This document shows, one piece after another, positions 21,978 to 42,885 of a DNA stretch of 64,000 nt (its first letter is position 1; each line of letters begins with the position of its first letter). The notes below the pieces were generated by a model. It was not told the DNA's origin and did not search any database. It was given only the letters and a program-made list of their open reading frames with translations. The DNA is from Methanoplanus limicola DSM 2279 (GTDB lineage: Archaea > Halobacteriota > Methanomicrobia > Methanomicrobiales > Methanomicrobiaceae): NCBI RefSeq assembly GCF_000243255.1, contig NZ_CM001436.1, positions 2,010,957 through 2,074,956 of the forward strand, read 5' to 3'. Position numbers and translations under genes: made by a program.

Positions 21978-23861
21978 TTACTCATTCTTCCGGATATACC
22001 GGCCAACAAGGCAAATTCCGGCAAGAACAGTTATTATTCCAAATCCGGGCGATGCCTGCTGTCCTTTGCCGGACTGTCCGCCCTGTGATGGACTTAGCGA
22101 GACAGAAACCGATGAAGTTTTGCCGGCCTCGACTTCGGTTGTACCTTCAGACTTACTGTAGCCGTCAAGCATGAGTGTGATTTTATGGTTTCCCGCCGGA
22201 ACATCATTCAGGGTTACAGGAGTTATACCCTTGTAGCTGTCATCAAGATATACATTGGCGCCTGACGGCGTGGATGTAACCTCAACTGAACCGGTTAACG
22301 GTGCGATAATATGTGTAAGTGCCTCTTCTATTGTCGAGGTTGTCCCGCCGTTGAAATACCGGGTAGTATCATAATCCCTGTATCCGACCTTCTCAATAGA
22401 GATTTTATGATTTCCGGGTGTTGTTGCAAGAGTTAGTGCACCGGGCACTCCGTCATCGTTTGTGTATCCTGCAAGGGTTCCGTCAAGATATACCTCTGCA
22501 TTTCCCGGATGGGAAATTACCCTGATATGAGCAATATTCGGGTTTTCCTTTCTCTGCATGCCTGCGTGAACAGTTGTGACACCATTTGCAGGGACATATT
22601 TTGTGGTTGTCCAGTCGGTAAAACCATTTGCTGTAACTCTTATCTGGTGATTGCCCACAGCAATATTCTTAACAGTCACTGCCGTTCTTCCGACTCCGCT
22701 GCCGTCAATATAAACATAGGCATTGTCCGGTTCGGAAGTTATCACAAGTGTACCGTAATTGTCATGTTTCTGAAGCGTTACAGACCTTGATATTGTCTGT
22801 CCGGCAGTGATAATTACATTCTCAGAATGATCTTCATAACCGGACATTGTTATCTTCAGCCCATATGTGCCAGGGCTGAGTGAAAATGTCAGGGGTGTTG
22901 TTCCTTTGTATGTTTTATCTATGTAAACCGATGCACCGGATGGTGATGTACTCACAGTGAGCTGCCCTCCTGTCGGACCTGCGGGTTGAAGGGTTGCATA
23001 GACACTGACGGTTTCACCTGCTTTTGGTGAAGCCGGAAGACTGTATCTATAAGTATTATAGCCGGATTTAGAGACTGTGAACTGCTTATAGCTGTCAGTT
23101 CCGGCTGTAACCGGGACAGTGAGCGAGCCTCCCTGGATTCTGCCCATATATGTATTATCAAAGGTGACCTCCGCAGATTCAACATTGCAGCTCACTTTAT
23201 ACCAGCCAACTCCGGGAGCAGGTGTTGATGTTGGTGAAGGAGTCGGTGAAACTGTAACAGTTGCTGTGGGCGTTGGTGTAGCAGTAGCAGTCGGTGTCGC
23301 GGTTGCTGTGGGCGTTGGTGTAGCAGTAGCAGTCGGTGTCGCGGTTGCTGTGGGTGTTGGTGTAGCAGTAGCAGTCGGAGTTGCGGTTGCTGTAGGCGTT
23401 GGTGTAGCAGTAGCAGTCGGAGTTGCGGTTGCTGTAGGTGTCGGTGTAGCAGTGGCAGTCGGAGTTGCGGTTGCTGTAGGTGTCGGTGTAGCAGTCGGTG
23501 TCGCGGTTGCTGTAGGCGTTGGTGTAGCAGTAGCAGTCGGTGTCGCGGTTGGAATTGCTTCCAGAGTAAGCGCAACTGCCTTATCCTCTCCGTTCCCAAG
23601 CGTAACTGTTTTGGATGCACTCTTATAACCTGACATTGAAGCGGAGATTGTATGCGAAACTCCGGATGAGAGACCCGATTCAGTCACAGGAGAACTTCCT
23701 TTATTAATACCGTCAATTGAAACAGCTGCACCTGATGGTGTGGTAGTGACAGTGACAGAACCTGTCTGTTCAGAAGTGGCATTATCTGCCGCGGCTGCCG
23801 GACATACCGGTAGTCCCAGAAGTACCAGGACAAATATAAGACATAATAATTTTTTTAGCAT
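21978..23861 (-). CDS. PEGA-repeat surface protein with PGF-CTERM-like anchor
   Basis: The 627-residue exported protein has a signal peptide ([18 protein letters not shown]), one PEGA domain, a long Thr/Pro/Ala linker of about 110 residues, and five further PEGA or PEGA-like beta domains (motifs such as [17 protein letters not shown] and [13 protein letters not shown]). The C-terminus is [19 protein letters not shown] plus basic residues, the tripartite PGF-CTERM pattern that archaeosortase A recognises, so it is probably anchored to the cell-surface lipid. The frame is open to 23906, but ATG 23861 begins the signal peptide and is preferred. It is probably part of the envelope; partners are unknown. 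Confidence 0.78.
23256..23551 (-). repeat. 42-bp minisatellite coding for a Thr/Pro/Ala linker
   Basis: About seven copies of a 42-bp unit encode [14 protein letters not shown] in the linker of the PEGA protein. The copies differ mainly at silent positions, and one unit is shortened to eight codons. Because the unit is a multiple of three, copy changes alter linker length without breaking the frame. Open frames on the other strand here are a by-product of the repeat. Confidence 0.88.
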
Positions 23862-24441
23862 AGATACCAGACCAGAATAGATATTTAACACTAAATAGAC
23901 TTTCAAAACTATTTAACTCTGCTGAAAAAGTAAAAATTGAGGTGGAGGTTTATTGCGTATTTATGAAATATTATTTCATAAATACAGGTCAATTTGCCAA
24001 AATATTCTCCGAGGGAGGTTTTTTCAGAGAATATCTTTCCGGCAGACCATAATAATTAGTAATATTTAATGTTATTTAATACCATAGATCGGGGAAATTA
24101 ACAGTTCATTTTTGACTTATGACAGGATGATTTATTTACATATAGCCGATAAAATAATGTTTTTAACTCACCTGCATCCGTGATAAAAAAGAGGAACAGA
24201 TATCATAATACGCCGGGAAAAAATAAAATCTGGGAGGTTTAGGGATAAGATAAACATCACTATACGCCCGGATAATTATAATTATATTGAAAGAAACAAC
24301 CCAAAAAACTCAGGATTTACAGACAGTTATCCAAATGAACTCAGAAATATCTGATCAATATACCTTCCCAAAAATTGGAGAAGAGTCAGAAATAATACTA
24401 AAGAGAAAATGGCTATTGTATGAGAAAATAATAGAGAAGAG
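23862..24441. other. 580-base region with two inverted repeats and no clear gene
   Basis: Upstream of the PEGA gene lies a perfect inverted repeat, GTATTTATGAAAT / ATTTCATAAATAC, with a three-base centre (23957-23985). A second has arms ATATTCTC and GAGAATAT at 24002-24009 and 24027-24034. The string GGAGGTTT occurs three times (near 23944, 24013 and 24234). Very short frames follow these Shine-Dalgarno-like strings, but none exceeds about 40 codons or looks like a protein. The rest is AT-rich with nothing recognisable. The inverted repeats may be operators or RNA hairpins. Confidence 0.4.
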
Positions 24442-28445: not shown

Positions 28446-28589
28446 CTAATTAAATATTACAATCAGAAGAAACTCCAGAACAAATGTTAAAACTAAACCA
28501 AGGATGAAAGTGACTATAATTACCAGAATAACCCAGGAAAACAGCTTGGCTACACTACCAAATATCTTAATCAGAGCATTTTTCAGCAT
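28446..28589 (-). CDS. 47-residue membrane peptide at the end of the tubulin-like operon
   Basis: A short frame (ATG 28589, TAG 28446) encodes a peptide with a basic amphipathic start (MLKNALIKIFG) and one long hydrophobic segment of about 30 residues rich in Val, Ile, Leu and Phe. It lies 67 bases after the PEGA gene on the same strand and could be the last cistron of that operon. There is no recognisable family and the Shine-Dalgarno match is weak. The continuous membrane-segment character makes a real gene plausible. Confidence 0.45.
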   Translation of the reverse strand: MLKNALIKIFGSVAKLFSWVILVIIVTFILGLVLTFVLEFLLIVIFN

Positions 28590-28656
28590 AGGCTACCGTT
28601 CCGGAAATATCACAGCAGAACAGTTCTTCTGAAATGCCGGGCCTTTATTCAGTTCA

Positions 28657-30336
28657 TCATTTCTGTTCTTTTTCATCATCCCTCTCCTCATACAACTCCT
28701 CAATCCCGGAACTATCATCATCAGTATCAATAATTGGCACAGGCTCAGGCACTTTTTCTGCTTTGGATTCTTCTGACTTTTCTGCCCCATATGACTCATC
28801 ATAAGCACCATCACCGTCAGACTCAACAGTAAAGCTTCCCTCAGCCTTCCTCTCAGCAGTTCCGGACCTCTCCTTTGCAACCTGAAGCAGCACAAAGACC
28901 GTATGAACACCGGGGCGTTTTCCGGCAAGGCTGACAGCATAACTTCCGGGATCAGTGAAATGATCCACAGGAGTGCCGTCAATATACACAGTACAGACAA
29001 AACCACGGTAAGGGCCGCCTTTCACATCCGCAGTTATCTCCGCACGGGCAAGCATATCATCTTCCTTAAATGAACCCGGAAGATGCAGGGTAATCTCCGG
29101 CTTAACCCTCCGCCGCACAAAATCTCCTGATACAAACCACCCAATAAGCAGAATGACAAGAACCGGCAGAAGATACAGCACATTATTGTTGAGATTCGGA
29201 CTGATGTCAAGCGTATTTTTCAGACCGTCGCCATCGACATCATAAGCACCGGATATTGCAGCCTCTGCATAACTGACAGCACTCCCGGAGTCTCCGGCAT
29301 TATAACTCTCCCTGGCCTTATCAAGAAGTTTCCTGGCATTATCAGGGCCATATGCAAGATTTAAAGAGATCGCCATCTCCGCCTCCTCTATCGCCTGGGG
29401 GACCATAGAGAGAAGAGAATATGATAAAGATGCACCGGTAGCCCCGACATCCACTTCCTCCTCAACACTCTCATAGCCAAACTTCTCAACGAGAATCGTA
29501 TGCCCCCCCTGGTTTACAGAAATCTCAGCCGGAGTAACACCCGACAGAACACCGTCAATATAGAGATCAGCACCGGCAGGGACAGTAATTACTGAAATAT
29601 TAACCTTAGAGAGTGTAAGCTCTGCCCTAACCTCAGAGATCTTTCCGGCTGCGACATCAACCCTGCCGGTCCAGTCATCGTATCCGGCTTTCCGGATAAC
29701 AGCATCATAAGTTCCGGGTTCGACTTCATCAAGCTCAAGCCTCGTATTACCCTTAAATTCACCGTCAAGATATATTCCGGCATTGGTCGGCTCAGACTCA
29801 AAGGTAATCCTTCCGGTAGTCGGGACCGGCTCAAAATTATGAATAAGTGACTGCGACATATCCTCATTAATCCAGACAGTCTCAGAATAGTCCGAGTAAT
29901 TGTCAAGTGTTAAAAGGACAGTATGTGCTCCGGCAGGGAGATTATTTAGAACCGTATTCGACCGGCCGGAGTATTCACCATCAATATAGATTGCCGCACC
30001 TTCAGGCTTTGTCAGAACAGAAAAGGCATCCCCCACAACCGGTTCCATATTATGGCTGACATAGGAGATCTCACCCTCCCTCACCTCAAATATATCCTCC
30101 CAGGTCCGGTATCCCGCCATCTCAAGCCGGACATAATGAATTCCGGGGAAGACATCCTCAATCACCGCATTGGTCTGACGGCCGAGGTTCTCATCATTCA
30201 GATAAATATCTGCACCCTGCGGATAGGAGGTGACGGAGATTATACCTTTGGTGACCTGTCCGGAGACGGGAATAGTCAGCACTGAAAATATCAGGAGCAG
30301 CAGAATAATCATCCGCAGTGCAGGGTTAATTTTCAT
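28657..30336 (-). CDS. PEGA-repeat membrane protein of the tubulin-like operon
   Basis: The 559-residue protein has a signal peptide (MKINPALRMIILLLLIFSVL), four PEGA domains (about 30-320; motifs SYPQGADIYLNDENLGR, PEGAAIYIDGEYSGR and VPAGADLYIDGVLSG), a short helical region, and one membrane helix near 385 (VLYLLPVLVILLIGWFV). A beta-rich domain follows (about 415-520, with a predicted fold like an Ig domain), and the tail is acidic. Topology suggests that the PEGA domains lie outside and the C-terminus inside. AGGT precedes the ATG. It probably senses or binds the envelope for the intracellular GTPase/tubulin-like proteins encoded upstream. This role is inference from operon context. Confidence 0.72.
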   Translation of the reverse strand: MKINPALRMIILLLLIFSVLTIPVSGQVTKGIISVTSYPQGADIYLNDENLGRQTNAVIEDVFPGIHYVRLEMAGYRTWEDIFEVREGEISYVSHNMEPVVGDAFSVLTKPEGAAIYIDGEYSGRSNTVLNNLPAGAHTVLLTLDNYSDYSETVWINEDMSQSLIHNFEPVPTTGRITFESEPTNAGIYLDGEFKGNTRLELDEVEPGTYDAVIRKAGYDDWTGRVDVAAGKISEVRAELTLSKVNISVITVPAGADLYIDGVLSGVTPAEISVNQGGHTILVEKFGYESVEEEVDVGATGASLSYSLLSMVPQAIEEAEMAISLNLAYGPDNARKLLDKARESYNAGDSGSAVSYAEAAISGAYDVDGDGLKNTLDISPNLNNNVLYLLPVLVILLIGWFVSGDFVRRRVKPEITLHLPGSFKEDDMLARAEITADVKGGPYRGFVCTVYIDGTPVDHFTDPGSYAVSLAGKRPGVHTVFVLLQVAKERSGTAERKAEGSFTVESDGDGAYDESYGAEKSEESKAEKVPEPVPIIDTDDDSSGIEELYEERDDEKEQK

Positions 30337-30370
30337 GATTTATACCTGCCTGACTGTATAGACAAATGTT

Positions 30371-31828
30371 CTAAACCTCTTCATCCGCCCCAAAAATTCC
30401 GTCAGAAAAAAGCCGGTATATTCCGGAATCAGCAATAAAAACCTCAGCAGACTCATCTGACACTGAGAGAGGAATGCCTGCATAATCCCATATCTGTCCG
30501 GACTCATTGTATCTCATAAGGCGGTATGACTTATCGGGTTTATACTCCGCAGTATTGTTCACAACTATATTCTGGGGGCCAAAAACTCTAATCTCATAGG
30601 CACTGCCAAACCCAATGAGACCCTCAGGAACATTGCCCGGCGCTGTACTCAGGCGGGTTATTATCACCGTACTCTCCTCCGGAGTAATGGTTGCCGAAGG
30701 AGTTATAGTCGTAACTGCGGGCGGTTCGTCACCGGAATTTCCCGGACTCATGACAAAAAAAATAAGCAGACCTGCAAGAAGAATTAAAAATATTCCAAGA
30801 ACTGCGAGAAGGCGGACCCGCCCCTTCTTCTTTCTTGCCATATGCTCTTCATACTCATTTTTAAGGCTCTCCCTGTCAAGTTCATTGATCTTCCACTTGC
30901 CATAATCAGACTCAGCAGGGACATTAAAATCGTTCTTCACCTGCGGCTCATAGGCAGAAGATGAGAAGTCTGCCAAAGAATCAGTAGCACCAATCCTCTC
31001 ATCAGAGAGGAATTTCTCAAAAACAGCAGATTTTTCCTTCGGGAATCTGCTGCTCCCTTTAAATTCAGAAATTATCCTGAGAGCAAGGTCGCCACGTGAA
31101 GTTATCCCGGACAGTTTCCGCCTGACAACAGGACTCTGTGCAAAAGTGCCCATACTCCTGTACAGCCTGCCAGTCTCAGAACTGTCAGTCTTTTCGGTTT
31201 TAAGGTCAATATCAACCCTGCCGGAATACTTCTCCGCCACATTCAGATCAGCATCCTTAAAGGTCATCTTTGAGACCGCTATCGTAAAACCTGCCGGCAG
31301 ATATGAATGAAGCTTCTCTGCAACAGCAACCACAAAATCGACAGACTTTGAGAGATCATCAGATACACATACGGTATCCCTGCCGAGAATGAGCCTTCCG
31401 ACAGTATAATCAGCAGCATCATAACCCGAAAGTCCGGTTACGACCTTACTTTTCCGGTCATCAAAAAAACCATGGTCAGATGCAAGGTCACGGACCTCAT
31501 ACTCAATCAGAGACAGTTTATGCTGCACACGGGCGTAAAATTCATGAATATAGGAGAGGTCAATCCTCGGCAGAAGCCCGCCATTAAATCCGGTCTTTTC
31601 AAGATATATGAAAGTATCCGGCCTTCTCCCTTTCTTCTGTACATTTACGGCCGTTCCAAGCAGAAGGATCCCGTTCTTTGTGCTGATATACAGAGATGCC
31701 GTACTCTCGTCAAGCCTCTCGGCAAGGTTTACAGCATATTCATCATGCAGGGTTCCTGCAACAGTCCCCCCGTCTGTAGTGAATATTCCGTATGAATCAT
31801 ACATTTTATAAAAACCCCATGAAATCAC
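30371..31828 (-). CDS. Single-pass membrane protein of the tubulin-like operon (unknown, possibly GTPase-associated)
   Basis: The 485-residue protein has a cytoplasmic N-terminal region of about 340 residues. It starts YDSYGIFTTDGGTVAGTLHD and later contains YTVGRLILGRDTVCVSDDL and LPAGFTIAVSKMTF. One membrane helix follows a basic stretch (VRLLAVLGIFLILLAGLLIF, about 350-372), and an outside domain of about 110 residues follows. It begins three bases after the GTPase gene if GTG 31828 is used; ATG 31804 is an alternative. The arrangement recalls the GTPase-associated (GAP1-like) proteins that accompany DO-GTPases in predicted conflict systems, but I see no decisive motif, so this is a guess. 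Confidence 0.6.
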   Translation of the reverse strand: MISWGFYKMYDSYGIFTTDGGTVAGTLHDEYAVNLAERLDESTASLYISTKNGILLLGTAVNVQKKGRRPDTFIYLEKTGFNGGLLPRIDLSYIHEFYARVQHKLSLIEYEVRDLASDHGFFDDRKSKVVTGLSGYDAADYTVGRLILGRDTVCVSDDLSKSVDFVVAVAEKLHSYLPAGFTIAVSKMTFKDADLNVAEKYSGRVDIDLKTEKTDSSETGRLYRSMGTFAQSPVVRRKLSGITSRGDLALRIISEFKGSSRFPKEKSAVFEKFLSDERIGATDSLADFSSSAYEPQVKNDFNVPAESDYGKWKINELDRESLKNEYEEHMARKKKGRVRLLAVLGIFLILLAGLLIFFVMSPGNSGDEPPAVTTITPSATITPEESTVIITRLSTAPGNVPEGLIGFGSAYEIRVFGPQNIVVNNTAEYKPDKSYRLMRYNESGQIWDYAGIPLSVSDESAEVFIADSGIYRLFSDGIFGADEEV

Positions 31829-31831
31829 AGC

Positions 31832-33397
31832 CTAAAGGCCGAATTTAAATACCTCGGTAAATCTCCACGGTGCAATTGCGGTAGGTGAAATCTCCTCCTC
31901 CACCCCTTCTTCAGTAGGGAAAGGCTCAGCCGTTGCATCCACAGAAACGGCAATAAAATACATAGAGAGATCATTCATCATATTTACGAGATTTTTAAAG
32001 ACTTTGTTTGCACTGAGCAGCTCAAAGAGACTCTCCTCAATGGCCTGTGCCTCCCTTGACCTCTCAGGGATATCCGACAGTTTTCCGGCACTCATGGAAT
32101 GAATAAGGTCCCGAATCTCCTTATTCTTCCAGAATACAAGGTCGGTCTTTGTAACCGCAAGAGCATACTTTTTATCCGGCCTGAAAAATCCAAGATAATT
32201 CCTCCCTTCAAGATCGATTAAAGTCTTCATATAACCGCCAAACTCCCTTGCAAGCTGGGCATGCCCCTTCCTGTCATCAGTAATTTTTTCACCGTCTATC
32301 AGAAAGATAACCTTACCCGCCCGGAGAAAATTGCCGTACATTGTGGCAATAATAACGCTCTTTGTAAACTCCGGGTCTAAAAGCTCCTCAGAATGATGCA
32401 GTTTTATATTTCTGACAAAATCAATTGTGCCGGCATTCTTCCGGATGTCAGCCCTGGCAATTCTCATCCTGTCGCTTAAGAGAGCAACCGCCTTTTTGAA
32501 GTTGATCTCATTGAGTTCATCGTAATACTCACCGGCATAATCAACAACAGTCCACTTCACAGGAATTATACCATATTTCTTCCCTGTAAGCTGGTACATA
32601 ACCATCTGGTAGCGGTATGTCCTTGACAGTATCTTTCCGTCTAAAACATTTGCATAAAGGCTTGATATTCTGAGCTCGTCACCTTCGTCATTTGGATCGC
32701 CGGTCAGGACAACGCCCTCATTGGAGTGCCCCCTCTCAAAGTTCTCAGAGATATAACTCCAGAGTCCGAGGACAAAATATGTCTTGCCCGATGACCTCGG
32801 TCCGAATATGAATATCTCGGATGCCCTGACACCGACAGTTATCTTAATTGCAAGCCAGTAAAGAATCAGGGAGAGAACAATTCCAATCCCGTAAAAGAAG
32901 ATGTTCTGCACCGCATAAGCAGAATCCACAGCTGTTTCCGGAGATAGTGCTGTGGCATACATCTCATAGGCTAAAAAACCGACAATAATTGCAAAGAACA
33001 CCGTAAATAAAACCCGGGCAAACTTTGCAAGATTGTCATAACGGTTCGTCATAACCGCTTTTATATCAAATACAGCCCCGCAGAAAACTCCGGCAAAAAA
33101 AGCAAGCATCAGAAGGGAAACATCTGCCCACGGGGTCAGGTAGACATAAAATGCCGGGACCCCTGCAAAAATTCCGGCATAGATCACCCCGTTTATCCTT
33201 GAATCTTCATTAAAGAGCATCCCTGCCGCAACTGCAAAAAAAAGCCCACATAAAAACTCAACAAAGAAGGTCAGCTCAGGAGGTGTCGGATGAAGCTTGA
33301 ATACCGGAGCAATGGTCATGAAGATATATGCAACGGCAATGCTTATTGGCAGAGCCAAAAGAAGGTAGATTTTTCTTCTTTTATTATTTATTATCAT
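31832..33397 (-). CDS. Membrane-anchored GTPase, DO-GTPase-like
   Basis: The 521-residue protein has about six membrane helices in residues 9-187 and a cytoplasmic GTPase domain after them. The G1 loop is GPRSSGKT (199-206), G3 is DYAG (286-289) and G4 is TKTD (416-419), giving a GTPase-like order. Its length and layout resemble predicted double-GTPase/TRAFAC-type membrane NTPases. It overlaps the tubulin-like gene by four bases (ATGA, with GGTGA just upstream), so the two are translationally coupled and probably made in fixed ratio. It may anchor or regulate assembly of the tubulin-like protein at the membrane; this is inference. Confidence 0.72.
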   Translation of the reverse strand: MIINNKRRKIYLLLALPISIAVAYIFMTIAPVFKLHPTPPELTFFVEFLCGLFFAVAAGMLFNEDSRINGVIYAGIFAGVPAFYVYLTPWADVSLLMLAFFAGVFCGAVFDIKAVMTNRYDNLAKFARVLFTVFFAIIVGFLAYEMYATALSPETAVDSAYAVQNIFFYGIGIVLSLILYWLAIKITVGVRASEIFIFGPRSSGKTYFVLGLWSYISENFERGHSNEGVVLTGDPNDEGDELRISSLYANVLDGKILSRTYRYQMVMYQLTGKKYGIIPVKWTVVDYAGEYYDELNEINFKKAVALLSDRMRIARADIRKNAGTIDFVRNIKLHHSEELLDPEFTKSVIIATMYGNFLRAGKVIFLIDGEKITDDRKGHAQLAREFGGYMKTLIDLEGRNYLGFFRPDKKYALAVTKTDLVFWKNKEIRDLIHSMSAGKLSDIPERSREAQAIEESLFELLSANKVFKNLVNMMNDLSMYFIAVSVDATAEPFPTEEGVEEEISPTAIAPWRFTEVFKFGL

Positions 33398-36300
33398 TCA
33401 CCGGCTGCCTCTCTGATGTCCCTTACGGAATAAAGGTCCATCACCCTCTTCTTTGCCTCCTCAATCTGAGCCTTGCCGCCGGATTCAAGATCTGCTATCT
33501 CAGCCGCATCTGTTAAAAGCAGAGTCTTTTCACGGGCGATATACTTACCCTGGTGGAGATAAAGGGCATGATGGAGGATGTTATTCCTGCTCTTCTCATA
33601 CTTCTCCCAGTATCCCCCTCCGGTTGTAAGCGGTGAGATATTCTCAAGGAAACCTGCGGCTGCGAAGAATGTAAGTGAGATCTCCCACGGTTTTGTGTAA
33701 TTGTGGGAGTTTACCTTTGCACTGTCAAAACCTTTGAGGTCAAGAGATTTTACAAGATAACGCCTGAAATCACTGCCCTTATTCTCAGTGAGCTGTGACA
33801 GCCATCTCGAAGGGGATGAAACTACAAGAGCCGCCTTGTCAAAACTCCATCTCTCAGTGCCGGCAGCTCCATATCCTATGGATATATTGTTGATTCCAAG
33901 CTTATGGGCGTCAACAAGCTCTTTGTACTTCCACTGAACAATGTTGTACAGCTTTTCTATCTCCGATTTGCCTTCCTCGTCATAGTCAAGGACAGAGAGA
34001 TCGGAGTCATCATTGAGGAGTGAGAGGATATTCGGATTGATCTCGCCAAACCACGTCCTGTACATCCCCTCAATCGTCTTATTGCCGCTGCTTCTCTTCT
34101 CATCAATTGCCCGGAGTCCGGACTCATAGGACTCAGTCTCTGCATTGTACTTCTTTCTCGGCTCAAAGGTTGAGCTGACGAGGTCATCGGTCTTTTGCAG
34201 GAATTCAATCTGCTGCTGCATCACCTTCTGCGACTGGATCAGGAGATCAATCTCGGTATTGAGATTGCCTCTCTTTGAGGAGTATCCTTCACGTATGTTT
34301 ATAATGTCAGTCAACCTCTCCCTGACACCTGTGATAATTGATGCAGTGTCCCTCCCGGAGAAGGAGTTTATCAGCATGGCCTTCTCATCCGATTCAAGAT
34401 TGAACTGTGAGACAAGCGGCCCGATTGTTGCCTCCCTTAACGAACCAAGCCTTGTATCAAACTCCCTTGTAAGGAATTTATCCTGGACAAATACCTCAAA
34501 CGGATCACGTATGGAGATCTTTCCGGGATGCATCTGTGAGATCTTTCTTATTCTCTCCTCTTTTGTATCCTTCTCACTCCTGAAGATCTCCGGGTTGAGC
34601 TTCCTGCCCAAAATTCCGTCTGCGAAACCCTGCTTTTTGGCAACCCTGAGCATATAGTCGTTGTAGAAGTACAGGGATACAGACTCTGCAAGGTCCCTTA
34701 AGTAAGAGAAGTCTGCTGATGTCGCACCTTCAAGGTTCTCAATATCTCCCTGGATATCGCCAAGCGGCAGTGATGAGAGCCAGACATCACGTTTTATAGG
34801 TTTGGCCTTCTTACTGCCGGATTTATTGAGCTTCTCCTTTAAGACAAAGAGCAGTGCTGAGAATTTTTCAAGAAATGCCCGCTCAAGGTCCTCTACAGAA
34901 TCACGTCCGGTTCCTTCAGCAGTCCCGTGCCCGAGTAAGACATAGTCCTCAACAGGTTTTGCAAGTGCATTGACCTCCGATTTGATCAGGTCAAGCATAT
35001 CACTCTCTTCTCTCTTAATCTCTTCAAGTTCAGAGCGCTTCTTTCTTACCTTTGCATCTGCCTCACTAATCTCAACCTTAAGTCCGGACTGGCGTGACGA
35101 GAGGTCACCGGAAATTTTACCAAAGTTCTCCTCGCCCCTGATGATGTTTAAAAGAGCCATTCTTGCCGATTTTTCATTTACAGAGAATGTCTTCCTCTCA
35201 AGGTGTGACATCTCCTCTAAAAGCAGCAGATTCTTCTTTATGACCTCGTAAAGCTCCTGATCTTTGGCATTTTCATGCGGCTTGCTCTCATTGTCAAGGG
35301 ATTTTTTCAGCCTGGAGACATATTCTGTCAGTTTGTCAAAGTCCTTTAATGAAGAGACGTCCTTTAACTCTTCAGGCATGTTGTTCGTAACCGCAGATTC
35401 GATTATGGACTGGGTCTTAAAGTTTAAGAGATCAGTTATATCATTCTCCCATCCCTTCTTTATCCGCTCGATCTCCTTTTTATAAAGATTTACATCATCG
35501 TGGGTGATCTCTGTGTCAGTCTTTGAAAATTCATTGGGGTAGAGGTTTTCACCTGCGGTGATGAAATCTGAGACCTCTTTTAGGATCTTTGCCCTGTTAT
35601 GTGAAATTCCGGCGAGGTTTTCTATAACATCCTCAAAGCCTTTCTTCAGCGACCGGAGGTTTTCCACCGGATATTCGATTACATGCGAATCTGCGAATAT
35701 AAAACCGGAGTAGTCCTTTTTGGCGTCCACTATCGCGGATATATCTGCTGTCGGGAGATAAAATGAGTTTATGAAGAGGTACGGGAATGCAGAGTCAAAC
35801 TCAACTACTTCCTGTTTCCTGTCACCTCCGTCAACATAGCCCGTGGGACTGAGTGACGAGACGATTATATAATTGAAGAGCTTGTCCTCTTTCATATTGA
35901 GGTATTCAATCTCAGATAGTGCAATTGCAGCATTTAACTGCTCCTTTTCGCCTTCGCTTGCTGCCGGAAGAACGACAAATAGCCAGATCTTTGACTCCTG
36001 ACCGCGTTTCTCCTTGATGTAGCGGGCAAGGTCTATAAACATGCCTGAACCTGTTCCCCCGCCAAGTCCGACTATTATCGCAACGGGCCCATGTCCCTGA
36101 AATGAGGGGAACTGCTCTCCGCCCTGTGTTATGGCTTTGTAAAATACCGCTTTTGATATGGCACGCCTGCGGTGAACTCCGCCGCCGAAGTCGTCAACAA
36201 TATTTTTATCAACTTTTTTGAGCATCTGGTAGTCAAAACCGTATTCGGGATCATTCATCCACCAGACATCGACAAGAGGCTTTTCACGCCGTCTCTTCAT

Positions 36301-36654
36301 CTGCTCTGCAATATCCCTTGACGTCAGGGAAGAGACCCTCTCGACATTTGCAAGGTCCGGCAGGTGATAATGGAGACTCTTTACACTCCCACCCATCTGA
36401 TTGTTTGTCCTCTGGATATCCCCAAGCCTTGCCATGACAGCTTCAGATCTCTTTATGTCATCCTTTCTCTGGTTCGAGTCGGTATCTATCGTATATAATG
36501 AAAGGCGCTTGCCGTCTTTCAGGTAATGTTTTAAGAACCATTCATGATCATAAAGATTTGATATAAGTTTCTTGCCACAGCCGCCGATCGCAACAACGGT
36601 CAGTTCGTCCGGCATCTGGAAGGGTTTTCCCTCGATTATTTCATCATGAGCCAT
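33394..36654 (-). CDS. Large tubulin/FtsZ-superfamily protein (Tubulin_2-like)
   Basis: The 1086-residue protein has an N-terminal tubulin/FtsZ-like nucleotide-binding domain. The first glycine loop is VAIGGCGKKL (about 21-30) and the tubulin signature loop is GLGGGTGSGM (196-205). LNAAIALSEIEYLN, resembling the tubulin/FtsZ helix after it, lies near 241-254. The rest is long and helical with coiled-coil-like stretches (about 400-620 and 800-900), unlike FtsZ or CetZ, which are 350-450 residues. Members of this Pfam-type family (Tubulin like) are about this long. GGGGG lies eight bases before the ATG. It may form GTP-dependent filaments or a nucleotide switch at the membrane with the GTPase encoded next; the function is not established. 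Confidence 0.8.
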   Translation of the reverse strand: MAHDEIIEGKPFQMPDELTVVAIGGCGKKLISNLYDHEWFLKHYLKDGKRLSLYTIDTDSNQRKDDIKRSEAVMARLGDIQRTNNQMGGSVKSLHYHLPDLANVERVSSLTSRDIAEQMKRRREKPLVDVWWMNDPEYGFDYQMLKKVDKNIVDDFGGGVHRRRAISKAVFYKAITQGGEQFPSFQGHGPVAIIVGLGGGTGSGMFIDLARYIKEKRGQESKIWLFVVLPAASEGEKEQLNAAIALSEIEYLNMKEDKLFNYIIVSSLSPTGYVDGGDRKQEVVEFDSAFPYLFINSFYLPTADISAIVDAKKDYSGFIFADSHVIEYPVENLRSLKKGFEDVIENLAGISHNRAKILKEVSDFITAGENLYPNEFSKTDTEITHDDVNLYKKEIERIKKGWENDITDLLNFKTQSIIESAVTNNMPEELKDVSSLKDFDKLTEYVSRLKKSLDNESKPHENAKDQELYEVIKKNLLLLEEMSHLERKTFSVNEKSARMALLNIIRGEENFGKISGDLSSRQSGLKVEISEADAKVRKKRSELEEIKREESDMLDLIKSEVNALAKPVEDYVLLGHGTAEGTGRDSVEDLERAFLEKFSALLFVLKEKLNKSGSKKAKPIKRDVWLSSLPLGDIQGDIENLEGATSADFSYLRDLAESVSLYFYNDYMLRVAKKQGFADGILGRKLNPEIFRSEKDTKEERIRKISQMHPGKISIRDPFEVFVQDKFLTREFDTRLGSLREATIGPLVSQFNLESDEKAMLINSFSGRDTASIITGVRERLTDIINIREGYSSKRGNLNTEIDLLIQSQKVMQQQIEFLQKTDDLVSSTFEPRKKYNAETESYESGLRAIDEKRSSGNKTIEGMYRTWFGEINPNILSLLNDDSDLSVLDYDEEGKSEIEKLYNIVQWKYKELVDAHKLGINNISIGYGAAGTERWSFDKAALVVSSPSRWLSQLTENKGSDFRRYLVKSLDLKGFDSAKVNSHNYTKPWEISLTFFAAAGFLENISPLTTGGGYWEKYEKSRNNILHHALYLHQGKYIAREKTLLLTDAAEIADLESGGKAQIEEAKKRVMDLYSVRDIREAAGE

Positions 36655-36657
36655 TAT

Positions 36658-37443
36658 TTATTCCCCCTTGTATTCTTTCTGAAAGTCCTGCATATTTTTT
36701 GCCCTTATCTGGCCAAATACCATCCCTGCGCCAAATCCGATTACAAGCAGTACAACCCCGATCAAAACTGCGGTTGTCAAAGGCAGGGTTGCCTCTTTTG
36801 GTGACCCGGCATATCTTAAAAGCTCTTTTGCCTCATCCCTCAGACCTCTTGAGTAGAGGTCGTCTATAATCCCCCGCATCTCAGGGTCATTTATGGCATT
36901 AAGCTCTGACATGAACTGCTCGTCATCAGGTATTGTTATGGAGAATGTCTTTGTTGTGCCTGTTCCGAGGGCATCCATGTTTCCGTCAAGCGCTTTTATG
37001 TGATAATATATATAGCCGGTAGTCTGTGTAACTCTTCTGGTCACAACCACCCCGTCAACAATTTCAACAGATGTTAAAACCGGAACTCTCCCATATACTG
37101 TTACTGCAATCTTATCCGGAAATCCGCTGTCGGCTGTAAGCTCAATTTTATGATCATTTAAAGATTCTTCTCCGCCGGAGATGTTAAAGCCGGATTCTTC
37201 AATCTGCCAGAGACTGGCCTGTGGGACAGGTATAAGATCAGTATTCATCTCAATGACCTCTGCCTGTTTCGGGATGCCGCTCACTTCAATTGTATATTGT
37301 ATTATTCCGCCTTCATTCTGTGATTCAACGAGGCTGCCTTCCTTTAAATCCGCAATTACAGCAGATGCCGGAAGACAGAAGAGCAGCATTGAAATAATTA
37401 ATGCCAGTGAGATAAATATTGACGATCGGTACCTTATATGCAT
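36658..37443 (-). CDS. Exported single-pass membrane protein, first gene of the tubulin-like operon
   Basis: The 261-residue protein has a signal peptide (SIFISLALIISMLLFCLP), a beta-rich outer domain of about 150 residues, a short helical stretch (about 175-210), and a C-terminal membrane helix (TAVLIGVVLLVIGFGAGMVF) with a basic/acidic cytoplasmic tail of about 20 residues. Its stop lies three bases before the tubulin-like start. There is no Shine-Dalgarno sequence, but TATA-like DNA is 20-35 bases upstream, so it probably starts a leaderless transcript. It may be an outside sensor or anchor for the operon; the family is not recognised. Confidence 0.65.
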   Translation of the reverse strand: MHIRYRSSIFISLALIISMLLFCLPASAVIADLKEGSLVESQNEGGIIQYTIEVSGIPKQAEVIEMNTDLIPVPQASLWQIEESGFNISGGEESLNDHKIELTADSGFPDKIAVTVYGRVPVLTSVEIVDGVVVTRRVTQTTGYIYYHIKALDGNMDALGTGTTKTFSITIPDDEQFMSELNAINDPEMRGIIDDLYSRGLRDEAKELLRYAGSPKEATLPLTTAVLIGVVLLVIGFGAGMVFGQIRAKNMQDFQKEYKGE

Positions 37444-38309: not shown

Positions 38310-39701
38310 TCATGCCCCGCCTGAAATATAATATCTCTCTATATCCTCCTCACCTATACGCTTCAGCTCCTCCTTCGGGAATATCGAGAGCAGTTTCCAG
38401 GCGAGAGAAAGAGTCTCCTCTATGCTCCTGCCCTCATTGTGCCTCTGCCTGACAAACTCATCCTCAAAACGGTCAGCAAATGTGAGATAAAGCCTGTCAG
38501 CAGGAGAGAGGCTCTCATCCCCGATAACGGCAACAAGGTTCTGAATCCTCCGGCCACGGGCATAGGAGGCATAAAGCTGATTGTTCACCGATGAATGATC
38601 ACCGCGGGTCTTTCCCTCCCCTATACCTCCCTTCATCAGGCGTGAGAGGCAGGGCAGGACATCCACCGGCGGGTAAATTCCTTTTCTGTGCAGTTCACGG
38701 GAGAGCACAATCTGGCCCTCAGTGATATAACCGGTCAGATCAGGCACAGGATGGGTTATATCGTCATCAGGCATTGTTAAAATCGGAAGCTGGGTAATTG
38801 ATCCTTTTTTTCCTTTGATCCTTCCGGCACGCTCGTATATCGAGGCGAGATCAGTGTACATATATCCCGGATAGCCACGGCGGGCAGGGATCTCCTCCCT
38901 TGCCGCCGAGACTTCACGGAGTGCCTCGCAATAGCTTGTTATATCCTGAAGAATCACCAGCACATGCATATCCTCATGGAATGCAAGGTACTCGGCTGCC
39001 GTTAATGCAAGCCTTGGCGTTATTATTCTCTCAATTGCCGGGTCATCGGCATGATTGACGAAAAGAACTGTATGCTCAAGTGCACCTGTCTCCCGAAACT
39101 CCTTCTCAAAGTAGTGAGCCTCCTCATAGGTAATCCCCATAGCACCAAAGACCAGTGCGAAATCCTCCTCTTCACCAAGTACACGTGCCTGTCTTGCAAT
39201 CTGTGCTGCAAGGTGCGAATGCGGCATTCCGGAACCTGAAAAGACAGGTAATTTCTGGCCCCGGACCAGAGTATTCATACCGTCAATTACCGAAATTCCG
39301 GTCTCGATGAAATCCTGCGGGTACTCGCGGGCAAAGGGATTTATCGAATAACCGGATACATCCATCACAACATCGGGAATAACCTCGCCGCCGCCGTCTG
39401 CCGGCTCACCCCCGCCACTAAGTATCCTGCCCAGCATATCACGCGAAACACCAATCTTCATCGGAGAGCCTGTAAACCGCACAGAAGTTATGTCAGTATC
39501 GAGATCACTTGTCCCGCCAAAGACCTGAACAATTGCAAGGCCCCTTCTCGTCTCAAGCACTTCCCCCCTCCGGACTGTGCCGTCCGGAAATCTGACATCG
39601 ACAAGTTCACCATAGCTTGCGTCATCCACACCTTCCACCGCAATGAGCGGCCCTTCAACCCTCACAACCGATACAAACTCCCGGATATTTCCCGGCATCA
39701 T
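38310..39701 (-). CDS. atpB: A-type ATP synthase subunit B (non-catalytic)
   Basis: Subunit B is the non-catalytic partner of A in the hexameric head. The 463-residue protein has the expected core: [19 protein letters not shown] with a degenerate P-loop [28 protein letters not shown], and [17 protein letters not shown]. Its ATG overlaps the atpA stop (ATGATG), which indicates translational coupling. The length is normal. Confidence 0.96.
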
Positions 39702-41467
39702 GCATCCCTCCCTTTAAGCTCCTCAATCTCAGACTTCAGATCATGCATAATTTTGTTGCAGATGGATGAAATCTCACTCTCAGGCCTGCTGCCAAGACGG
39801 CTGAAACTCTGTATAACCGGCAGTGCAGCGATATCAGATGAGAGAACGCCTGACCCTACCGCATCTTTTGCCAGGCGGTAAAAGCCTGAAATCACCTTCA
39901 GCATTGCATTCTGCTTAAAAGGTGCACAGTAGCGATCTTCTCTGTCAGTTGCATACTGAATAAGGAATGACTCCTTAATTATCCCGGCAGTCAGCAATAC
40001 AAGGCGGTCCTCCTCAGGAAGGACATCAGGCCCGACAAGCTGTACAATCTCTTCAAGCTCACTCTCTTTCTGAAGCAGAGCCATTATCTCCTGCCTCATA
40101 TCCTTCCAGCCGCCTTCAAACCGCTCCTCCCACCAGGGAGAGATCAGGTCAGTGTACAGAGAATAGGAGAGCAGCCAGTTCACTGCCGGAAAATGGCGCT
40201 CGTGTGCAAGCTCGGCATCCAGTGCCCAAAACACCCTTACAATGCGCAGAGTGTTCTGCGTTACAGGCTCTGAGAAATCCCCGCCGGGAGGCGATACAGC
40301 TCCTATAACTGATATCGAACCGATATTCCCGCTATTGCCGCAGACCTTCACCCTGCCGGCACGCTCATAAAAATCAGCAAGGCGTGATGCAAGATATGCC
40401 GGATAGCCCTGTTCTCCCGGCATCTCCTCAAGCCTTCCGGAAATTTCCCTCATAGCCTCTGCCCAGCGTGAAGTCGAATCTGCCATAAGTGCAACATTAT
40501 ATCCCATATCACGGTAATATTCCGCAATCGTTATTCCGGTGTACACACTCGCCTCCCTTGCAGCGACAGGCATGTTGCTTGTGTTTGCAATCAGAACCGT
40601 CCTTTTCATAAGCGGTTCATGAGTCTTAGGGTCTTCCAGCCGTGGAAATTCCCTCAGGACATCAGCCATCTCATTGCCGCGTTCACCACAGCCGACATAG
40701 ACAATAATATCGGCATCTGACCATTTTGCAAGCTGATGCTGCACTATGGTTTTTCCGGCTCCAAAAGGACCCGGAACTGCCGATGTGCCGCCTTTTGCAA
40801 TCGGAAAAAGAGTATCAATTACCCGCTGGCCTGTAATTAAAGGCTCTATAGGGTCAAGTTTTCCACCAGTCGGCCTTGGCTTTCTGACCGGCCAGTGCCT
40901 CACCATAAGAATCTCAGTCTCGCCTTTATCTGTCTTAACAGTGGCTACAGGCTCTTCTATTGTATAACGGCCCGGTGGTGCTGCCCGGATAAGCTCACCT
41001 TTTATTCCGGGAGGGACTAAAATTCTGTGTGTGATATTTCCCTCAGGCACAGTGCCAAGAATATCGCCCTCAGATACCTGGCTGCCTGCCGTAATTTCCG
41101 GAGAATAATCCCAGAGGCGTTCACGGTCAAGAGCAGGAATGTTTGTTCCCTTAATTATGAAATCTCCCACCGAATTCCACATACTCTCAAGCGGTCTCTG
41201 GATGCCGTCATATATCATACCGAGAAGTCCGGGTCCAAGTTCTGCCGGAAGAGGCATGCCTGCGCCTTCTACAGCCTGGCCGGGGAAAAGTCCGGTCGTG
41301 TCCTCATAGACCTGAATGGTGGCGACATCCCTCTCAAGCCTGATAACCTCCCCGATTAACCTGTCCTTTCCTACACGGACAAGTTCATACATCTGTACAC
41401 CCCGCATACCCTCGGCCTCGATAACCGGGCCTGCAATCCTTATTATTGTCCCTTTAGTATTCATCAT
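39698..41467 (-). CDS. atpA: A-type ATP synthase subunit A (catalytic)
   Basis: Subunit A makes or splits ATP in the head. The 589-residue product has the P-loop GPFGAGKT, the archaeal non-homologous insertion region before it (about 115-190), the Walker B-like [19 protein letters not shown], and [25 protein letters not shown] precedes the start, with ATG at 41467 and a second ATG three bases on. The gap to atpF is three bases. There is no intein or frameshift. Confidence 0.97.
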
Positions 41468-41470
41468 CAG

Positions 41471-41731
41471 TCACCATTTTTTATCTGCATATGAGGGAAT
41501 GGCTATAATAAGCGGATATGAATCCCTGACCTGCATAAGACTCTCAATCTCCTTTTGCATATCTTCTGCATAATTATTCTCAATAAGAATTACTCCGATA
41601 TCATTCCGGTGTGCAAACTCTTTCAGGGCTGATTTAGCCTCCCAAATCTCTGTGCAGACCTTCGTACAGGATACACCTGCAAGTGCAAATCCGGCTGCAA
41701 CCTCACGCCCCCCGATAACAGCAGTCTTCAT
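41471..41731 (-). CDS. atpF: A-type ATP synthase subunit F
   Basis: The 86-residue F subunit belongs to the central stalk and modulates ATPase activity. It has the small Rossmann-like pattern TAVIGGREVAAGFALAG and IGVILIENNYAEDMQ, close in size to other archaeal F subunits, though slightly short (usually about 100). It overlaps atpC by four bases (ATGA). Confidence 0.92.
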   Translation of the reverse strand: MKTAVIGGREVAAGFALAGVSCTKVCTEIWEAKSALKEFAHRNDIGVILIENNYAEDMQKEIESLMQVRDSYPLIIAIPSYADKKW

Positions 41732-42885
41732 GAAGCTCTCTCCCAGACCATCATATTCATAATCTCCTCAGCCGGCATTTTTGCACAGACTCCGTTGTAT
41801 GCAATTATAAGATTATTCTGCTCAATTCCACGTGCAAAGGCATACCTTATGAGCGGCCCGCTTCCAAGATGGTACTTTGTTGCAATACCGTCCCCGGTAT
41901 CAAGGAGCAGGCGGTCCATCTCAATCTCAGGGTCACCCCTGACAGATGCCTTCTCAATGGCAGTGTGATACAGAGTGCCCCGGCACGCCTCAGCCACAGC
42001 TTCATGTGTGGTGCATGATGCCAGATCCTTAAGCCTCTCGCCGTGAAATTCAATTCCTTCCTCAATAAGCTGCCTAATCTTTTCATCCCTCTCAAGTCCG
42101 AGAGTGACCGCCCGGTAGATATTCTTCAGGTTTTTAATATCAATGGTATGCCCGACAAAAAGTCCGATTGGCTCAGCAAGACTGACATCGACTTCTCCTG
42201 CCGCATTAAGAAGGGTATGATACAGATGACGGTCAATCATCTCCTCCAGTTGTGCCGGTGAGAGGTCACTTATGTCTTTGTCCGGAGGGATAAATCCGAG
42301 ATCTTTTAATATACCCTTTATCTCCCCACTGCTCTCTGCATGGGCCAGTTTTCGTATCAGCACCGGATTCAGACGGCCTACCGGGAGGGCCTGAAGTTCA
42401 GCTCCGGTTTTTGATGCCCGGAGAATATACTTGGCCTCTTCGGCCTCAGAAAATTTCATGTAGGCTAAGAAAAAAGGTTTTACAGAGCCGGGAACAGTTT
42501 CTAAAAGCTTTTCAAGCGAAGAATAATATTCCTCCCGGAGTAAACGCTCACTTTCGTCCACAGTATAACTTTTGTGCAGGGGGATATCATAGTTATACTG
42601 CCTCAGATGCTCCATCACCTCATCGGGGGAATATGACCCGGCAAGTATCCGGAGGTTCTCTTTTTCAACAAAGGGATTTCCAATAGACCTTACTCTTGCC
42701 ACAGGATGTGCAAAACCTGCAATATTGAGAATAAGCCTGATATAACCTGATGAAATGGCCGCACCTATGATAATTGCAATAAGTATTGCAAAAACCAGGA
42801 GGATTAATGCATAATCCCCACCCTCTCCGGAAAAAGAACCGGATATGAGATCAGATACTGCCTGTCCGGGGTCAAAGCCTGTCAT
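41728..42885 (-). CDS. atpC: A-type ATP synthase subunit C
   Basis: Subunit C (V-type d/AC39 family) sits between the central stalk and the proteolipid ring. The 385-residue protein begins with a hydrophobic stretch (ILLVFAILIAIIIGAAI) followed by the typical helical domain with RVRSIGNPFVEKENL and SYTVDESERLLREEYYSSLE. It ends in MMVWERAS. It overlaps atpE by 14 bases and atpF by four. The N-terminal hydrophobic extension is somewhat longer than in many homologues. Confidence 0.93.
   Translation of the reverse strand: MTGFDPGQAVSDLISGSFSGEGGDYALILLVFAILIAIIIGAAISSGYIRLILNIAGFAHPVARVRSIGNPFVEKENLRILAGSYSPDEVMEHLRQYNYDIPLHKSYTVDESERLLREEYYSSLEKLLETVPGSVKPFFLAYMKFSEAEEAKYILRASKTGAELQALPVGRLNPVLIRKLAHAESSGEIKGILKDLGFIPPDKDISDLSPAQLEEMIDRHLYHTLLNAAGEVDVSLAEPIGLFVGHTIDIKNLKNIYRAVTLGLERDEKIRQLIEEGIEFHGERLKDLASCTTHEAVAEACRGTLYHTAIEKASVRGDPEIEMDRLLLDTGDGIATKYHLGSGPLIRYAFARGIEQNNLIIAYNGVCAKMPAEEIMNMMVWERAS

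Follow-up and report, generated by a model that had tools for sequence, protein, structure and literature searches.

An archaeal operon of the FtsZl1 kind in Methanoplanus limicola encodes a tubulin-like protein and a membrane GTPase

Introduction

Few branches of the tubulin superfamily are as diverged as the FtsZl1 (FtsZ-like 1) family, which is scattered over archaea and bacteria. From genomes, Makarova and Koonin (2010; PMC2875224) predicted that it takes part in a membrane-remodeling complex, and the main text of that paper describes proteins of ~1050 residues with a tubulin-like N-terminal domain, a GGGTG(S/T)G loop, a long coiled coil, and a mostly helical C-terminal part, encoded in operons alongside a divergent GTPase, which in archaea is associated with the membrane, and several membrane proteins. 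Kinase and vWA genes are frequent companions in the same account—vWA genes occur in most operons, though they are not required—and the organisms aligned there include Methanosarcina and Methanospirillum. Separately, DO-GTPases have been paired with tubulins in predicted conflict systems (PMC7159879), and a 2023 survey kept Tubulin_2 proteins separate from the main FtsZ/tubulin family because of how far they have diverged and how their domains are arranged. We found no experimental study of the FtsZl1 family among the open-access papers that were searched. Here we analyze an operon of this kind from Methanoplanus limicola DSM 2279 (closed 3.2 Mb genome), with positions numbered on the 64,000-nucleotide stretch that was analyzed, hereafter “the window” (NZ_CM001436.1, 2,010,957–2,074,956).

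A first-pass annotation had flagged the operon as a possible undescribed machine. It is instead a member of the kind predicted in 2010, with useful new detail: the FtsZl1 family, the membrane GTPase, and the prediction of a membrane complex already stand in the main text of PMC2875224, as the DO-GTPase/tubulin pairing does in PMC7159879. The M. limicola operon shares with the FtsZl1 systems described there its tubulin-like architecture, membrane GTPase, membrane proteins, and an ordinary FtsZ elsewhere in the genome, but has no vWA or kinase gene inside it. That main text is silent on PEGA proteins, on a longin-like fourth protein, and on a GTPase pair that occurs without tubulin, though part of this detail may already stand in the supplements, which hold archaeal families A1–A2. 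We read the operon, at a probability of roughly 0.5, as an archaeal FtsZl1 membrane module that organizes or remodels the envelope rather than dividing the cell.

Results

All six open reading frames (ORFs) of the first-pass annotation are present on the minus strand, as follows.

36658..37443, minus strand: exported anchor, 261 residues (ORF; family alignment)
33394..36654, minus strand: tubulin-like protein of FtsZl1 type, 1086 residues (Tubulin_2; AlphaFold; Foldseek)
36040..36069, minus strand: T4 nucleotide loop GLGGGTGSGM of the tubulin-like protein, residues 196–205 (alignment of relatives)
31832..33397, minus strand: membrane GTPase, 521 residues (Pfam in family; hhalign)
30371..31804, minus strand: fourth gene, single-pass protein of probably 477 residues; ORF from 31828, 485 residues (AlphaFold; Foldseek; start by comparison)
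28657..30336, minus strand: PEGA membrane protein, 559 residues (PF08308)
28446..28589, minus strand: 47-residue membrane peptide (ORF; match in sister species only)

The 1086-residue protein belongs to the tubulin superfamily, specifically to FtsZl1 (Tubulin_2). It matches Tubulin_2 (PF13809, 2.8e-13) and Tubulin (PF00091, 3.1e-9) in Pfam, both above the curated cut-off and both at the GLGGGTGSGM loop, in which G199, G200, T201, G202, and G204 are invariant among 30 relatives; in the head, the nucleotide motifs T1, T2, and T4 are all conserved. An AlphaFold model from 30 sequences (predicted local distance difference test, pLDDT, 83.7) divides it into an N-terminal GTPase domain (~17–330), a helical/coiled-coil middle (~330–860), and a C-terminal alpha/beta part (~890–1086), of which the last ~160 residues are mixed alpha/beta. 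The best Foldseek matches of this model are CetZ, FtsZ, and TubZ at probability 1.00, with CetZ—an archaeal cytoskeletal protein of cell shape—at the top for the head, although CetZ lacks the ~550-residue helical/coiled-coil middle found here. A reading of the coiled coil as an insertion ahead of an ordinary tubulin C-domain was dropped, as the order of strands and helices fits poorly and the Foldseek match stops short. Cell division is probably served by FtsZ, since the M. limicola genome has an FtsZ-type gene at another site (a 58-residue match at the nucleotide loop), and division is an unlikely role for the operon.

The GTPase has six predicted helices followed by a cytosolic DO-GTPase-like domain, and the motifs attributed to it at the outset are in place: GPRSSGKT (residues 199–206), DYAG (286–289), and TKTD (416–419), with G199, G204, K205, D286, G289, T416, and D419 invariant among 17 relatives. 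DO-GTPase2 is matched in Pfam by 14 of the 17 family members (best 3.6e-6), the M. limicola protein alone scoring 0.063, under the Pfam cut-off. Profile comparison of the family with Firmicute DO-GTPases in hhalign gave 95.1% (E 3.2e-8, 247 columns) against at most 2.5% for unrelated controls. On these profiles, we place the membrane GTPase with the DO-GTPases (i.e., as a TRAFAC-type GTPase domain), an assignment new in this analysis. Against sequences of the PDB, the GTPase and fourth-gene profiles returned only P-loop matches or nothing usable.

The core genes are closely packed, as first described, in two of three places: the anchor and tubulin genes are 3 bases apart, and the last 4 bases of the tubulin gene are also the first 4 of the GTPase gene, an overlap found again in many species. 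The third junction is wider. For the fourth gene, the probable start is the ATG at 31804, not the GTG at 31828, because the ATG agrees with the N-terminus of the family and because the sister species, read from the matching upstream position, has an early in-frame stop codon; the gap to the GTPase gene is therefore 27 bases rather than 3, and the protein has 477 residues.

That these genes belong together is borne out across genera. Among 232 genomes of the class, profiles matched the tubulin in 33, the anchor in 34, and the GTPase in 35, with all three in 32. A collection-wide scan yielded 78 loci; the anchor–tubulin–GTPase order is intact in about 30 of them, with the fourth gene next in most, and this order (with or without the fourth gene) recurs in Methanomicrobiales, Methanosarcinales, and Geoglobus, a PEGA gene being fifth in the Methanomicrobiales loci. 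Among 120 relatives, full-length tubulin orthologues occur in many genera (28–95% identity), the other matches being short and ordinary-FtsZ-like. Flanking genes are almost never common to the 13 representative loci compared. Relative to the sister species, the tubulin gene carries 45, 20, and 320 changes at codon positions 1, 2, and 3, a concentration at the third position that indicates purifying selection and, with orthologues in many genera, lies far beyond chance. Tree distances of four of the genes correlate (r 0.94–0.97), to which common descent alone contributes.

The fourth protein was modeled with AlphaFold from 17 sequences (pLDDT 80.3). In the numbering of the 485-residue ORF, the model has a cytosolic part starting with the order bbabbba, a helix at ~316–358, and an outside beta-sandwich at ~389–476. 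The order of the cytosolic part is compatible with a longin-type fold, and the Foldseek matches—all weak, from 4.4e-3 (TagF, top) to 0.6—include many regulators of GTPases, among them DENND10, LAMTOR–Rag and FLCN complexes, and roadblock and longin proteins. We thus take a longin/DENN-like cytosolic part as a lead rather than an identification; the predicted domain layout (longin/DENN-like part, one helix, outside beta domain) is new detail. As candidates, GAP1 was ruled out (hhalign 0.1% against five GAP1 proteins from one bacterial phylum; no GAP1 Pfam match in 16 family members), so that of the profile comparisons proposed initially those with Tubulin_2 and the DO-GTPase family succeeded and that with GAP1 failed. 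Sequence kinship of the N-terminal part with archaeal roadblock proteins was likewise sought, and no similarity was found.

The GTPase and fourth gene also occur as a pair without tubulin, which is a new observation. In three genomes of one genus (L130:6692-9776, L131:67-3355, and L132:3944-7131) they are adjacent, with neither a tubulin nor an anchor gene in the stretch examined, and the tubulin profile matches none of these genomes. The neighbors are protein kinase, TPR, or vWA/PP2C/PEGA genes: the L132 pair adjoins two vWA genes, a PP2C phosphatase gene, and a PEGA gene, and another pair adjoins a protein kinase gene. At four haloarchaeal loci (L087–L090), the tubulin-like gene is accompanied nearby by a gene for a membrane GTPase and by a relative of the fourth gene; these fourth-gene relatives have several membrane helices, and two carry PQQ beta-propeller domains. 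Because the pair occurs without tubulin, and both members also lie near haloarchaeal tubulin-like genes, the data suggest that the GTPase and fourth protein are a core switch separable from tubulin.

Of the remaining components, the anchor has a signal peptide, an outside domain of ~190 residues, one C-terminal helix, and a short cytosolic tail (topologies of family members were read from hydropathy). The PEGA protein has a signal peptide, the four PEGA domains originally reported (PF08308, 6.8e-54, Pfam), a helix near 390, and a C-terminal domain. The description of the flanking proteins as envelope-binding was overstated; PEGA domains are common in this genome (51 matches).

Discussion

Family memberships, hydropathy topology, gene order, and co-occurrence were computed here; the mechanistic steps that follow are what we infer. 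The outside domain of the fourth protein would sense the condition of the cell surface, and its longin/DENN-like part would regulate or hold the neighboring GTPase. The GTPase, acting as a receptor-like switch, may then bring the tubulin-like protein to the inside of the membrane and control its GTP-dependent assembly, while the anchor and PEGA protein would connect the assembled protein with the surface layer. The resulting structure would act in envelope organization or remodeling, not in cell division. On the membrane-spanning complex that such a scheme implies, we agree with the first-pass annotation that it is likely. A bolder form of the scheme—a receptor-to-cytoskeleton pathway running from a surface sensor with a longin/DENN-type part through a membrane DO-GTPase to a coiled-coil tubulin-like filament, in which the GTPase–regulator pair is an ancient portable unit that uses or drops tubulin—is doubtful.

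Several results weigh against an envelope-organizing module. Most of the 232 genomes of the class are without a tubulin profile match, i.e., the system is dispensable, and the PEGA or fourth gene is absent from some loci (Methanofollis). The longin/DENN reading is at the level of fold only, with no Foldseek match below 0.001 for the fourth protein, which also lacks a Pfam match and, in profile comparisons, does not resemble archaeal roadblock proteins or GAP1. For the tubulin-like protein, the Foldseek template-modeling score of ~0.48 by target length fits the nucleotide half only, about half a tubulin; a polymer-forming C-terminal domain is thus unconfirmed, and filament formation, like the interactions among the operon proteins, is only predicted.

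The comparison with DO-GTPase/GAP1/tubulin systems (PMC7159879) raises an immune alternative, in which an invader is sensed by the outside or membrane parts and the GTPase then sets off assembly of the tubulin-like protein, with a protective or suicidal effect. The resemblances are a related GTPase, a tubulin-superfamily partner, and a putative partner gene directly downstream of the GTPase, and both the patchy distribution and the flanks that differ between genera would suit a conflict system, the setting in which DO-GTPases with tubulins were described. Those systems differ in that the operon is archaeal, its GTPase has six membrane helices, and it shows no GAP1 similarity, FNIII, zinc ribbon, or effector; among 22 bacterial genomes with distant FtsZl1 relatives, GAP1-N2 was found in none. 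Nor does any operon protein have a recognized peptidase or nuclease domain, and PADLOC matches are weak and short only. Given also that the sequence is conserved and slowly evolving under apparent purifying selection, that several genera of the family keep the module in most of their genomes, and that the M. limicola operon adjoins ATP synthase and antiporter genes, we regard an immune function as unlikely and less supported than an envelope role.

An alternative that a reviewer raises in the text of PMC2875224, namely a transmembrane transport or surface-signaling complex with the tubulin-like protein as a non-polymerizing scaffold or nucleotide sensor, appears improbable to a similar degree. 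It would accommodate the outside domains, the cytosolic switches, the unconfirmed polymer-forming domain, the PQQ beta-propellers of the haloarchaeal relatives, and the kinase, vWA, and PP2C genes that neighbor the pair without tubulin; yet no conserved component has a transporter domain, the T1, T2, and T4 motifs of the head are conserved, and characterized superfamily members form filaments (PMC2875224). That the genes are chance neighbors or an extension of an ATP synthase operon, with no dedicated unit, has almost nothing left to recommend it and is already refuted for the core: A-type ATP synthase genes adjoin the operon only within this genus and in a single Methanofollis genome, whereas at the other loci examined the module is intact with no ATP synthase match nearby. 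We reject the linkage to ATP synthase as a genus-level accident.

The operon brings together tubulin relatives and a membrane GTPase whose partner may be of longin/DENN type. Its predicted switch would work like those of MglA–MglB, Rag–LAMTOR, and Rab–DENN, in each of which a GTPase meets a longin-, roadblock-, or DENN-type partner, but it differs from them in its GTPase family, in a partner that spans the membrane, and in the lack of sequence similarity to roadblock. A compact module of four or five genes, with clear topology and a separable GTPase–partner pair, makes the role of tubulin relatives at membranes directly testable.

Additional Observations

The 47-residue peptide, proposed at first as a component, is matched in the sister species only (52% over 40 residues) and probably lies outside the conserved module. 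Directly upstream of the operon are the A-type ATP synthase genes (window 38310–42885), and antiporter genes also adjoin it. Elsewhere, the window encodes a further multi-PEGA protein of 642 residues (21978–23906), and a frame of ~3700 residues with many PEGA repeats lies near genome position 960000.

Among the loci of the scan, one of the Methanofollis group (L049:7171-10461, G049) has a second tubulin-like gene, 28% identical, directly after the PEGA gene, and the genome carries a third copy on another contig. In Methanogenium cariaci JCM 10550 (L059:9201-18159), several operon genes are fragmented through sequencing errors or decay. One contig filed as Bacteroidota (L058) carries an operon in which the tubulin-like gene agrees in length and N-terminus with its counterpart in Methanoculleus UBA430 (L060); the contig is probably archaeal and mis-binned. 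Finally, Firmicute-type DO-GTPase/GAP1 operons (L138–L141) encode two large presumed tubulin proteins for which profile comparison detects no resemblance to the tubulin-like family of the archaea.

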